Below are positions 34,146 to 38,004 of a stretch of DNA of 38,004 nucleotides, in pieces. Numbering within the stretch: position 1 is the stretch's first letter; each line of letters begins with the position of its first letter. This stretch comes from Clostridia bacterium. Its GTDB lineage: Bacteria; Bacillota; Clostridia; Oscillospirales; Acutalibacteraceae. The DNA is taken from positions 1 to 38,004 of the forward strand of contig JAFULG010000028.1 of NCBI GenBank assembly GCA_017473435.1, given 5' to 3'. The notes beneath the pieces were generated by a model. It ran no database searches. It saw only the letters and a program-made list of their open reading frames with translations, and was not told where the DNA came from. The translations under genes were made by a program, and so were the position numbers.

Positions 34146-34186
34146 GTAGTTAAAATTTAAGTTAAAATACATTGGGAGGAATTAAA

Positions 34187-35188
34187 ATGGATTCAAACAA
34201 AAGACCCGAAACCATGGAAAGAATCACAACTAAAGCTCTCGCAGATGCATTTATCGATGAGCAGATTGCTGCTGTACGTGCACAGGTAGGGGATAAGAAG
34301 GTTCTTCTTGCTCTTTCAGGCGGCGTTGATTCGTCTGTTGTTGCTGCACTTCTCATTAAGGCAATCGGCAAGCAGCTTGTATGTGTTCATGTAAATCACG
34401 GCCTTATGCGTAAGGGCGAAAGTGAAAACGTTATTGAGGTTTTCCGCAATCAGCTTGATGCAAATCTTGTTTATGTTGATGCAACTGATCGATTCCTTGA
34501 TCTTCTTGCCGGCGTAAGTGATCCTGAGAGCAAGCGTAAAATTATCGGTGCAGAATTTATTAAAGTTTTTGATGAAGAGGCTGCAAAGCTTGACGGAATT
34601 TCCTTCCTTGCACAGGGTACAATTTATCCTGATATTCTTGAAAGCATTAAGCAGGCAGAAGGCAAGAAAGCTGTTAAGTCACATCACAATGTCGGCGGTC
34701 TTCCTGAAGATATGGCTATGGAGCTTGTTGAGCCTATTAAACTTCTTTTCAAGGATGAAGTACGTGTTGTAGGTGAGGCTCTCGGACTTCCTCATGCTAT
34801 GGTATACCGTCAGCCGTTCCCCGGTCCCGGCCTCGGTGTTCGTTGCCTTGGCGCAATTACTCGTGACCGTCTCCATGCCCTCAGAGAGGCTGATGCAATT
34901 CTTCGCGAGGAATTTGATCTTAACGGTCTTGCTGAAAAAGTATGGCAGTACTTTATTGCAGTGCCCGATATGAAGAGTGTCGGCGTAAAGGATGACAGCC
35001 GTTACGAAGGTTGGCCTGCAATTATAAGAGCTGTGAACACCACAGATGCTATGACTGCTACAATTGAAGAAATTCCTTACGCAGTTCTCCACAAAATTAC
35101 AGCACGTATTACCAATGAGGTTGAGGGTATTAACAGAGTATTGTTCGATTTAACCCCGAAGCCGACAGGTACAATTGAGTGGGAATAA
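34187..35188 (+). CDS. guaA: GMP synthase, ATP-pyrophosphatase subunit (no amidotransferase domain)
   Basis: GMP synthase converts XMP to GMP. The 333-residue protein holds only the ATP-PPase domain, with the PP-loop LALSGGVDSS at 41-50, and the C-terminal dimerization domain: QPFPGPGLGVR and the terminal GTIEWE. The N-terminal class I glutamine amidotransferase domain (about 200 residues in E. coli GuaA) is absent. The ORF starts cleanly at ATG 34187 after GGGAGG, and the upstream neighbour is unrelated, so this is not truncation. It may pair with a separate amidotransferase subunit as in archaea (GuaAa/GuaAb) or use free ammonia. Its 3' end is the probable attachment site of the element that follows. 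Confidence 0.93.
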   Translation: MDSNKRPETMERITTKALADAFIDEQIAAVRAQVGDKKVLLALSGGVDSSVVAALLIKAIGKQLVCVHVNHGLMRKGESENVIEVFRNQLDANLVYVDATDRFLDLLAGVSDPESKRKIIGAEFIKVFDEEAAKLDGISFLAQGTIYPDILESIKQAEGKKAVKSHHNVGGLPEDMAMELVEPIKLLFKDEVRVVGEALGLPHAMVYRQPFPGPGLGVRCLGAITRDRLHALREADAILREEFDLNGLAEKVWQYFIAVPDMKSVGVKDDSRYEGWPAIIRAVNTTDAMTATIEEIPYAVLHKITARITNEVEGINRVLFDLTPKPTGTIEWE

Positions 35189-35308: not shown

Positions 35309-35899
35309 TTATTTAGGTATTGCACCTGAACGTTGAAGTTCCATCTCAATGGCTTCAATGTAATCTTTCATTTCATTCATAACATCAAGAATAGCTTGCT
35401 CATTTGTGTCGCCGTATTTAGCGGCACTTTTTTCATATCCATAGGTAATTTTCTCCCACTTTAATATGTCTTTGAAAACGTCATCAGACTTTAACATAAA
35501 AGCAAGACTTTGTGCATTTGAATCTGTGCCGTTCACTTTGGCATTAAAGAATTGTGAAACAAATGGATTAATGTCAAATGAAACTGTTTCGGGAATTAGT
35601 CCGTCATCTTCACCTCGTTCACCTTTGATAATGAGTAGATTTGTTTTTATGAGCATAAGGAGCAGTCCCATAAAATCGCCTTTGGTTTCAAGACGGATAT
35701 TATTATCTATTCCTGATATTGCAAAAGAACTTACACCGAGAGCTTCAGCAATCTTTTCAATTTGCTGAGCCTGCGGTGTCATTTTATTTGTTTCGTACTT
35801 TCTTATTGATACAGGGTGTATACCGCTAAGGTCAGCAAGCTCTCCTTGAGTTATACCCATACGTGTTCTTAAATATCTAATCTTATCGCCTATTGTCAT
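35309..35899 (-). CDS. XRE-family transcriptional regulator of the element
   Basis: A 196-residue regulator. Residues 1-58 are a Cro/CI-type HTH (IRYLRTRMGITQGELADLSGIHPVSIRKYE). The rest is a helical, acidic domain with no peptidase motif, so RecA-type self-cleavage is not expected; relief by a partner or antirepressor is possible. It is divergent from xis-int across a region rich in palindromes, the usual layout for an ICE or prophage repressor. AAGGAAAGGAAG precedes the ATG. The stop faces the guaA end of the element. Confidence 0.85.
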   Translation of the reverse strand: MTIGDKIRYLRTRMGITQGELADLSGIHPVSIRKYETNKMTPQAQQIEKIAEALGVSSFAISGIDNNIRLETKGDFMGLLLMLIKTNLLIIKGERGEDDGLIPETVSFDINPFVSQFFNAKVNGTDSNAQSLAFMLKSDDVFKDILKWEKITYGYEKSAAKYGDTNEQAILDVMNEMKDYIEAIEMELQRSGAIPK

Positions 35900-36095: not shown

Positions 36096-36284
36096 ATGAC
36101 AACAGAAAAGAAAATTTATATTACAGCACCTGAAATGGCAGAAATGCTGGGAGTATCCCTCGGACACGCTTATAAGATTATAAGAAGTCTGAATCAGGAA
36201 CTTAAAAAAGATGGCTACATTGTGATTGCCGGTAAAGTTCCAAAGGGTTATTTTGAAAAGCGCTGGTTTGGTTACAGTGCGTAA
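36096..36284 (+). CDS. Excisionase-like small HTH protein
   Basis: A 62-residue protein with a MerR/excisionase-type HTH at about 8-35 (ITAPEMAEMLGVSLGHAYKIIRSLNQEL), a short wing, and the end GKVPKGYFEKRWFG. AAGGAGGTG precedes the ATG. Proteins of this kind commonly precede integrase in clostridial ICEs and bend DNA for excision. It is 12 bases upstream of int and under the same promoter. A regulatory role without recombination function is an alternative. Confidence 0.8.
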   Translation: MTTEKKIYITAPEMAEMLGVSLGHAYKIIRSLNQELKKDGYIVIAGKVPKGYFEKRWFGYSA

Positions 36285-36296
36285 GGAGGTAAAAAC

Positions 36297-37361
36297 ATGA
36301 AAGCCCAAAAAGATGTAAAGACAGGAAAGTGGCTCATTCAATATAGATACACAGATTGGCAAGGAATCAGAAGAAAATCTACCAAAAGGGGATTTGATAC
36401 AAAGAGAGAAGCAGAAGAATGGCTAAGAAACTTTCTGCAATCGCAACAGGCGGATTTCAATATGAAGTTTGAGGATTTTCTCAGACTGTATTATGAAGAT
36501 ATGAAGCCGAGAATACGTGAGAACACAATGAATACAAAAAAGTATATTATCGACTTGAAAATACTACCGTTCTTCAGCAAGAAGAGTGTTAATAAGATAA
36601 CACCCGCCGATGTAAGAAAATGGCAGAATGAGCTGATATCGCAAGGATATTCTCAAACTTATCTCAGGACAATAAATAATCAGTTAACAGCAATATTCAA
36701 CTTTGCCGTTAGATATTATGATTTGAAAAGTAATCCTTGCACGAAGGCCGGAAGCATGGGTAAAAATTCAGCTGACGAAATGAAGTTCTGGACGAAGGAA
36801 GAGTTCTCAGTGTTTATTGATGGGGTAATGGATAAACAGAAGTCATATGTTGCCTTTATGACTTTGTTTTGGACAGGTATGAGAGTAGGGGAGTTACTTG
36901 CTTTAACACCTGCAGATATTAACTTTGATGAACGAACAATAAACATTTCAAAATCATATCAAAGGTTAGGCGGTAAAGATGTAGTGACTCCACCGAAAAC
37001 ACCTAAGAGTAACAGAGTTATTACAGTTCCTGATTTCCTGCTAGCAGATATAAAGGACTATATGAATCGTATATACTGCTTGGAAAGTACAGACAGACTC
37101 TTTAATATGACAAAGAGTTTTCTCGAAAAAGAAATGCAGAGAGGTATTAAAAATAGCGGTGTTAAACGTATCAGAATTCACGACATAAGACATTCTCACT
37201 GTGCTCTGCTCTTTGAGATGGGAATAACACCTTTGGAAGTTGCAGACCGTTTAGGTCACGAAAGAGTAGAAACAACACTCAACACTTATGCTCACCTATA
37301 TCCCAATAAGCAAAGAACACTTTCAGATAAACTACAAAAAATATATCAGGAGGAATTTTAA
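36297..37361 (+). CDS. int: Tyrosine recombinase / site-specific integrase
   Basis: A 354-residue integrase of the Tn916/phage type. The N-terminal arm-binding domain is about 1-50 (GKWLIQYRYTDWQGIRRKSTKRGF), the SAM-like core-binding domain 55-145, and the catalytic domain 165-345. The catalytic set is complete: Arg196 in GMRVGEL, Lys near 237, HDIR with His295 and Arg298, His321 in LGH, and the nucleophile Tyr331 in LNTYAHLYP. It mediates integration and excision of the element starting at the guaA end. The stop is adjacent to the ATG of the next gene. Confidence 0.95.
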   Translation: MKAQKDVKTGKWLIQYRYTDWQGIRRKSTKRGFDTKREAEEWLRNFLQSQQADFNMKFEDFLRLYYEDMKPRIRENTMNTKKYIIDLKILPFFSKKSVNKITPADVRKWQNELISQGYSQTYLRTINNQLTAIFNFAVRYYDLKSNPCTKAGSMGKNSADEMKFWTKEEFSVFIDGVMDKQKSYVAFMTLFWTGMRVGELLALTPADINFDERTINISKSYQRLGGKDVVTPPKTPKSNRVITVPDFLLADIKDYMNRIYCLESTDRLFNMTKSFLEKEMQRGIKNSGVKRIRIHDIRHSHCALLFEMGITPLEVADRLGHERVETTLNTYAHLYPNKQRTLSDKLQKIYQEEF

Positions 37362-37748
37362 ATGGCCGGGAAAGACGAGAAAAGGGTAAGAAGTAAAACA
37401 ATAAGCTTTTATGTTACACCTGAAGAAAACAAACACATTCAAGCGAGAATTAAAATCGCAGGTATGCCGAAGGGAGAATATTTTATCGAATCATTGCTGC
37501 ATCAAAAGATATGTATCTCCGTAGGCAAATATCAGAGTGACAGGTTGAGTTTAGAAATGAAAAAGTTAAGACTTGCACTTGAAAATACAAATGAAGTTGA
37601 GTCGTTAAAAGATGTAATAGACGAGTGCAAGGCATTACTTGAACAGCTTAAAAGTGTAATAGATGATAACTCAAACCTGTCGGCTGATATCTTTAACAGT
37701 AACAGCAGAAGGGGAAATAGCTTCAACTCGATTCCGCCTGATGCGTAA
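37362..37748 (+). CDS. MobC-like relaxosome accessory protein (ribbon-helix-helix)
   Basis: A 128-residue protein. A basic start and a beta strand (KTISFYVTPEENKHIQ) are followed by helices and GMPKGEYFIESLL, the pattern of a ribbon-helix-helix DNA-binding protein of the MobC type. A later Leu-rich helix (about 65-105) may form a coiled coil, with a Ser/Asn-rich tail. MobC proteins bind oriT and help the relaxase open it. The ATG abuts the int stop, with AGGAGG upstream, and the candidate oriT follows at once. An alternative is a transposon-control regulator; I favour the mobilization role. Confidence 0.75.
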   Translation: MAGKDEKRVRSKTISFYVTPEENKHIQARIKIAGMPKGEYFIESLLHQKICISVGKYQSDRLSLEMKKLRLALENTNEVESLKDVIDECKALLEQLKSVIDDNSNLSADIFNSNSRRGNSFNSIPPDA

Positions 37749-37754
37749 TTCTGT

Positions 37755-37818
37755 GTGTCAACCGTGACAACTTATTTGCCACTACCACAGAGGTCGTCAC
37801 GGTCGTCACGGTTGACAC
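37755..37818. repeat. 14-bp inverted repeat with 9-bp tandem repeats
   Basis: GTGTCAACCGTGAC (37755-37768) is perfectly inverted at 37805-37818. The right arm overlaps three tandem 9-mers, GGTCGTCAC (37792-37800), GGTCGTCAC (37801-37809) and GGTTGACAC (37810-37818). It looks like a protein-binding array, for the MobC-like protein or relaxase. Confidence 0.75.
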
Positions 37819-37858
37819 GGAAAACTGCATATTAATGAAAATAAATATGCGGTTTTCC
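37819..37858. repeat. 15-bp stem-loop
   Basis: 37819-37833 pairs with 37844-37858 with one G-T wobble and a 10-base loop. No T tract follows, so a terminator is less likely than a structural part of the oriT region. Confidence 0.7.
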
Positions 37859-37864
37859 TACCAC

Positions 37865-37937
37865 GTAGGGCGCAATAGCATCTTTTGAATACTCAAGTAG
37901 TCAAAAGTGCTTTTGCGTTACTCTTGACAAGAGTAAC
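37865..37937 (-). other. oriT: Candidate oriT with MOBQ-type nic site
   Basis: On the minus strand, TGCGCCCT (plus 37867-37874) equals the nic core of IncQ/MOBQ origins, cut between G and C. Just 5' of it on that strand is an inverted repeat: plus 37877-37888 (AGCATCTTTTGA) pairs with 37901-37911 (TCAAAAGTGCT) with one bulge. Two further perfect hairpins follow, CAAAAG/CTTTTG at 37902-37915 and GTTACTCTT/AAGAGTAAC at 37917-37937. Together with the MobC-like gene this fits a transfer origin. Confidence 0.6.
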
Positions 37938-38004
37938 AGAACCCTTAATAAGGTTTGGAGATTATAAAAGACGAGAAAGGTAAGGTGGTTCTATAAGAAG
38001 AACG

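Follow-up and report, generated by a model that had tools for sequence, protein, structure and literature searches.

The DNA analysed here (the window, 38,004 nucleotides) is the whole of contig C15, and its sequence ends at position 38004. Towards the right end lies the 3′ part of guaA (34172–35188, plus strand), which encodes GMP synthase (GMP_synt_C, E 1.4e-35; guaA_Cterm, E 9.4e-133) and is the presumed integration target, its last codons (35177–35188, plus strand) forming the 12-nt putative attL core GAGTGGGAATAA. It is followed by a gene for an HTH_3/Xre-type regulator on the minus strand (35309–35899; PF01381, E 7.2e-14) and by three genes on the plus strand. These encode an excisionase-like protein (36096–36284), which matches the ICEBs1 Xis model NF047858 with E 1.5e-17 at a score below the cut-off (63 of 100 bits), a tyrosine integrase (36297–37361; Phage_integrase, E 5.5e-20; Phage_int_SAM_3, E 1.6e-20), and a relaxosome accessory protein of the NikA/MobC-like kind (37362–37748; Pfam NikA-like PF21983, E 5.3e-11, above the cut-off), the gene for which begins immediately 3′ of the integrase stop. 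An earlier reading of the letters alone (the sequence-only reading) had placed a transfer origin (oriT) beside a MobC-like gene, in a module where integration and mobilization genes are tightly packed, and both the neighbour and the setting are borne out. No tRNA that might serve as attachment site was found by a tRNA search of the window. The last 4 kb of the window are 91% identical to a sibling element (locus L042 in genome G005), in which GAGTGGGAATAA stands at the end of guaA and recurs at the other end of the element, about 17.7 kb away (L103:10624–10635). Moreover, eight further proteins of the sibling were compared with Pfam (from ORFs of at least 90 aa, one long ORF being covered in part); two are ABC transporters, one is a methyltransferase, one has a weak radical-SAM match and four have no match, and no family of a transfer machine (T4SS) is among the eight. 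The 12-bp repeats at this distance and the lack of transfer machinery in the scanned proteins fit an integrative mobilizable element (IME), and the window element likewise looks like an IME at the 3′ end of guaA. For the window element, no right-end copy of GAGTGGGAATAA was found in C10, another contig of the same genome.

Folded as DNA, the 259 nt that follow the last gene are much more stable than shuffled sequences (z −8.9, 0/200). They begin with an inverted repeat that contains CGTCACGGT direct repeats (37755–37818), upstream of the oriT and perhaps a replication or regulator site; a piece of it (query 433–459) matches genomes G241, G273, G291 and G319, near Mob_Pre matches. A second inverted repeat with 18-nt arms follows (37819–37858). 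Then come, on the plus strand, a mini-hairpin CCTAC-CAC-GTAGG (37857–37869), and, 1 nt further on, the main stem-loop (37871–37917), with the outer arms CGCAA (37871–37875) and TTGCG (37913–37917) and the inner arms at 37882–37893 and 37896–37907. The third hairpin, GTTACTCTTG-A-CAAGAGTAAC (37917–37937), starts directly after the nick predicted below and has other arm sequences in relatives. The single Rfam match in the window is far under the gathering score. Judged from this sequence and its relatives, the region 37865–37915 with its surroundings is very probably an oriT, and one of a known kind (MOBV) with an architecture of its own. The sequence-only reading had assigned it to the MOBQ kind and expected a MobA/MobL relaxase, the product of a neighbouring gene, to cut the minus strand at TGCG^CCCT. 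The octamer on which it relied, TGCGCCCT, is indeed present on the minus strand (37874–37867), where it is preceded by an imperfect inverted repeat formed by the two 12-nt inner arms (92% complementary), which, counting the AGCA/TGCT extension seen by eye, leaves 6 bases to the proposed G/C cut. Octamer and repeat spacing both speak for a MOBQ origin. The same reading had conceded that the octamer alone could be due to chance, and this holds as well: it occurs twice in the window versus 0.65 times expected, and 16 of 100 shuffles gave at least two matches, so that it is uninformative by itself.

The relaxase gene itself is cut off by the end of the contig. A Shine-Dalgarno-like AAGGTGG (37982–37988, plus strand), recognised from the sequence and the relatives, is followed by what are probably the first four relaxase codons, ATA AGA AGA ACG (37993–38004, plus strand), and the same codons run on as IRRTISVMVGKGSVNH in the relative L013. 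The start codon is apparently ATA (37993–37995), with a later in-frame start possible. At the position of the relatives' ATG, 38 distinct relaxase genes (L036 and L163, where no relaxase starts, are left out of the count) have ATG in 16 cases, ATA in nine, TTG in eight, ATT in three, and GTG and ATC in one each; thus the start codon is a rare one in 13 of the 38, which possibly keeps relaxase levels low. In the sibling, the gene directly downstream of the oriT encodes a Mob_Pre protein (PF01076, E 2.3e-17, above the Pfam cut-off), and the same cut-off is passed by five other relatives. Contig C10 opens with residues 329–383 of a relaxase (its last 55), 95% identical to the sibling relaxase, and is colinear with the sibling; the C15–C10 join, deduced via the sibling, leaves a gap of about 1 kb to the window end. 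The PF01076 scan of the window's own genome gave a match on C23 only, missing the relaxase end on C10, which was recovered by a search with the sibling protein; PF03432 has six matches in this genome. Against the structure of MobM (4lvi), the sibling relaxase gives a weak match (E 0.0064; E 8.8e-05 as a three-sequence profile), and the HN..R and HxDExxPHxH motifs are kept in the alignment. The NCBIfam MobV equivalog model scores 48.6 to 53.7 bits in four relatives, 52 in the sibling, below its cut-off of 100, so that relaxases of this type form a distant MOBV clade. Taken together, the sequences indicate that the relaxase for this oriT is a MOBV (Mob_Pre) protein, encoded just downstream on the plus strand. 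As side observations, the sibling relaxase is followed by TnpV (PF14198; L042 6884–7270), a name known from Tn4451, and C10 encodes past the relaxase end a very long protein (L104 798–4754) that by eye resembles Rhs/YD-repeat surface proteins.

The MobA/MobL relaxase expected just past the window is therefore replaced, in C10 and in the relatives, by one of another family, the very outcome that had been named as contrary to the MOBQ proposal. Matches to PF03389 (MobA/MobL) in the window's genome lie on C72 and C68 only, contigs with other genes. Their oriTs, to which the octamer does bear a resemblance, carry the nic core TAAGTGCGCCCT at 12 of 12 positions, while the window agrees at 9 of 12 only. 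Furthermore, TGCGCCCT is kept in 16 of 43 relatives, and the relative L052 has GGGG in place of TGCG and is still complementary to the opposite arm. A minus-strand cut at the octamer is hence unlikely, since stem pairing together with the mini-hairpin can account for the octamer; on this comparison TGCGCCCT (37867–37874) is best read as the outer arm, or far base, of the main stem together with the edge of the small upstream hairpin, not as a cut site, and we regard the MOBQ assignment as highly improbable.

As a DNA query, the tail of the window found matches in 41 of 395 related genomes. The best-conserved stretch is 37900–37944, on the other side of the stem from the octamer, and it is 100% identical in several relatives. 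Among the relatives listed, the layout on the relaxase coding strand is mini-hairpin, stem-loop, and a hairpin starting TTACT. The right-hand hairpin stands upstream of the relaxase in 17 of 18 loci chosen by relaxase protein (L100 is without it), these loci having been hand-picked among the matches listed by a clade-typical partial profile match and not drawn at random. The stem was surveyed in 42 oriTs, obtained from 51 sites (44 non-duplicate) after the minus-strand reading of the L099 palindrome and L035 (no arm within 36–62 nt) had been dropped. Its bases are CGCAA/TTGCG in 35, CCTTT/AAAGG in two, CCCCG/CGGGG in one, CGTTC/GAACG in one and of other types in three, and the post-nick hairpin still starts with TT. 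The arm was located by complementarity, so these counts describe the variety of the bases and are no independent test of pairing; likewise, the searches themselves required a TT after the nick, a perfect right-hand hairpin and complementary stem bases, so that the constancy of these features is partly imposed.

For the position of the nick, two mapped MOBV systems offer a guide. MobSag cuts the relaxase coding strand at 5′-GTGCG/TT-3′, and the site of MobM is GTGTG/TT (PMC5090054); pMV158 transfers the coding strand and is nicked right where its IR3 stem ends on the 3′ side (PMC5863519). In the window, the 3′ end of the stem reads TTTTGCG^TTAC on the plus strand (37917/37918), which agrees with GTGYG/TT in GCG^TT and departs from it at the first G. 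Of 43 non-redundant relatives, selected for a TT[ACT]C[TC] start, 38 retain GCG^TTAC. Only one of 28 scanned Mob_Pre loci (30 loci have full-length profile matches) was positive for the pMV158-type nick motif, which means that MOBV oriTs are too variable for motif transfer to prove a nick. From these mapped nick positions and from the conservation, the nick is likely on the plus strand between 37917 and 37918, about 47 bases from the cut first proposed and on the opposite strand. A single event points to the same site: L095 (G291:C38:9400–11500) has the right-hand hairpin but is without the right arm and loop of the stem, and the right end of the missing 30-nt stretch coincides precisely with G^TTACT. 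The same contig has an intact oriT (L087) about 33 kb from L095.

Both bases of the stem read TTGCG outward, and 37 of the 43 relatives retain TGCGC[CT]C. The MOBV relaxase might instead cut at the mirror position TTGCG^C, so that the minus strand would be transferred. Yet MobSag was mapped to the coding strand and pMV158 transfers the coding strand (PMC5090054 and PMC5863519, respectively), the stretch missing from L095 ends at the plus-strand site, and the GNA loops described below belong to the plus strand, with pSK41 showing the same in its pMV158-type oriT; we consider the mirror position very unlikely. The hairpins could also be mainly regulatory, as terminator, operator or site of relaxase autoregulation, instead of an oriT. 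MobM does repress its own gene from its oriT (PMC5863519), so that regulation may coexist with an oriT role; the position, the architecture and the association with relaxases match mapped oriTs, and a mainly regulatory role in place of an oriT is very hard to credit.

We therefore favour, with a probability of roughly 0.85, the combined reading that the region is the oriT of an IME at the 3′ end of guaA, nicked by the element's own MOBV relaxase on the plus strand at 37917/37918, with exit driven by a helper. Taking the anatomy, the relaxase family, the conservation and the abutting mini-hairpin as read from the sequences, we infer for the binding, the position and strand of the nick, and the use of a helper the following course. 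The MOBV relaxase, from the plus-strand gene that follows the oriT, would bind the stem-loop at 37871–37917, nick the plus strand at TTTTGCG^TTAC and become attached to the 5′ T, and the element would leave through the conjugation machine of the helper. The mini-hairpin at the 5′ side of the stem, on the transferred strand, would be part of the site, perhaps serving recognition or the rejoining of the transferred end.

The MOBQ-type oriTs of the same genome (C72 and C68) and of the same taxonomic order allow a comparison with this architecture. For these, the nic consensus is NWACCNNTAAGTGCGCCCTYNN (PMC3832669). Of 31 MOBQ loci (29 plus C72 and C68), 18 had a MOBQ-type nic recognisable by script, and 17 an opposite arm; C72 was missed by the script though its oriT is visible, and in C68 extra DNA splits the two halves of the oriT. 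They share with the window the outer-arm module and, in 14 of the 17 (1.94 expected; 8 of 11 distinct), have a mini-hairpin that abuts the stem at its 5′ base, C68 being one of those without it. This mini-hairpin is on the same strand as the consensus nic, which is taken as the transferred strand. They differ from the window in the nic TAAGTGCG^CCCT, in the stem, in the MobA/MobL relaxase and in a nic strand that is opposite to the relaxase coding strand. Two of them (L004 1556–1610 and L005 6397–6557) are on contigs that also carry a gene that is ParM-like by eye. A 15-mer, TGCGCTCTCCGAGGG, which stands at the octamer position in many MOBV relatives, occurs at 22 places in 19 of 295 genomes (reversed control, 0), of which the script classed nine as MOBV-type, eight as MOBQ-type and five as neither, one of the five being C68. 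The presence of this 15-mer in both kinds of oriT would suit a two-faced site, in which the element's own MOBV relaxase cuts the plus strand and the MOBQ relaxase of a helper cuts the minus-strand module in trans. In MOBQ-type oriTs, however, TGCGCTCTCCGAGGG is the far stem base and not the consensus nic, and the window is without TAAG and its module is another variant, so that this double use seems quite improbable. Outside these genomes, pRW35 and pBDH17-2 carry CTCGCAGAG, downstream of a match to the neighbouring stretch. The MOBQ oriT of pSK41 has no abutting mini-hairpin, unlike the oriT in the mobV segment of the same plasmid; the abutting mini-hairpin is common, not universal.

In the MOBV-type oriTs, a hairpin with 3 or more bp and a 3–5 nt loop ends exactly at the start of the stem in 40 of 42 cases, whereas 3.8 are expected when the same 15 nt are shuffled, and among distinct 15-mers it is found in 28 of 30, with loops of the type GNA or GNNA in 23 of those 28. 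Many of the counted rows are related, so that the counts are not independent events. GNA loops give unusually stable DNA hairpins. In an offset scan, 34 of 41 oriTs had a GNA/GNNA hairpin at offset 0, while the offsets of 10–79 nt had 0.11 each on average, and TNC-type loops (GNA on the opposite strand) occurred once at offset 0, which places GNA/GNNA loops mostly on the plus strand, the one predicted to be transferred. In relatives the mini-hairpin has a stem of 3–4 bp that directly abuts the oriT stem, and its arms vary (CCC/GGG, CTC/GAG, CTCT/AGAG, TCC/GGA, CGC/GCG), which indicates that the pairing is kept and not one sequence. The window itself is outside the counted set, with its variant CCTAC-CAC-GTAGG one base off the stem. 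A narrow search of the open-licence literature found no description of such a mini-hairpin, which is a weak negative. We tentatively suggest, at somewhat below even odds, that MOBV and MOBQ oriTs in Firmicutes share an unrecognised element, the GNA/GNNA mini-hairpin which directly precedes the nick-proximal stem on the 5′ side, on the transferred strand. Since the two families have different relaxases and nick sequences, this mini-hairpin may be a common handle, for example for a host factor, for the relaxosome or coupling protein of the helper, or for the step in which the transferred end is rejoined. If it is such a handle, it could help to explain how unrelated relaxases use the same helpers.

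Among known systems, the MOBV1 oriTs of pMV158, IMESag-rpsI and the mobV segment of pSK41 have their nick at G^TT on the relaxase coding strand, at the 3′ end of a stem (IR3), as is predicted for the window, and they resemble it in lying just upstream of the mob gene. The pMV158-type oriT of pSK41 has, moreover, the same order, with a mini-hairpin (CTC-GCA-GAG) directly 5′ of the stem and then GTGTG^TTA. They are unlike the window in that its stem CGCAA...TTGCG is unrelated and in that a separate perfect hairpin after the nick replaces the overlapping IR2. Among the matches listed, the sibling relaxase has at most 47% identity to plasmid proteins, and 32–37% to those of Enterococcus and Lactobacillus. 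The MOBV element ATE-1 of Trueperella is similar by description, with a tyrosine integrase, the 3′ end of guaA and a MOBV relaxase (PMC5704250); an IncP helper has served for MOBV elements before (PMC5704250). Small MOBV plasmids of Firmicutes (NZ_CP136424.1, HG796793.1, NZ_MH229772.1 and others) repeat this oriT layout in front of a gene for a 'plasmid recombination protein'; unlike the window element, they are not integrated, and their listed neighbours include neither an integrase nor a NikA-like gene. Weak DNA matches (E 0.3 and 0.002) led to two small plasmids that are typed MOBV and have the relaxase just downstream and the same layout. In eight more plasmids from a protein search, chosen from 25 matches listed of 250 records and not drawn at random, the layout was found in six by script, in L163 by a second script and in L160 by eye only, with a CAAC hairpin. 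The layout is also present on plasmids with cfr(C) (Clostridioides difficile, L156) and erm(B) (Blautia, L051); the family and the likely cut site are corrected for a transfer origin that extends, in its layout, from the matched genomes to resistance plasmids. In addition, the layout suggests a strand-specific, structure-based signature that could help to find oriTs and to predict the transferred strand where motifs fail. Finally, a 4-kb record named "Bacteriophage sp." (L053, MT839806.1) has by eye an integrase-like ORF, an ATPase-like ORF, the same oriT and a MOBV-like relaxase start, and from its sequence looks like a mobilizable element, not a phage.
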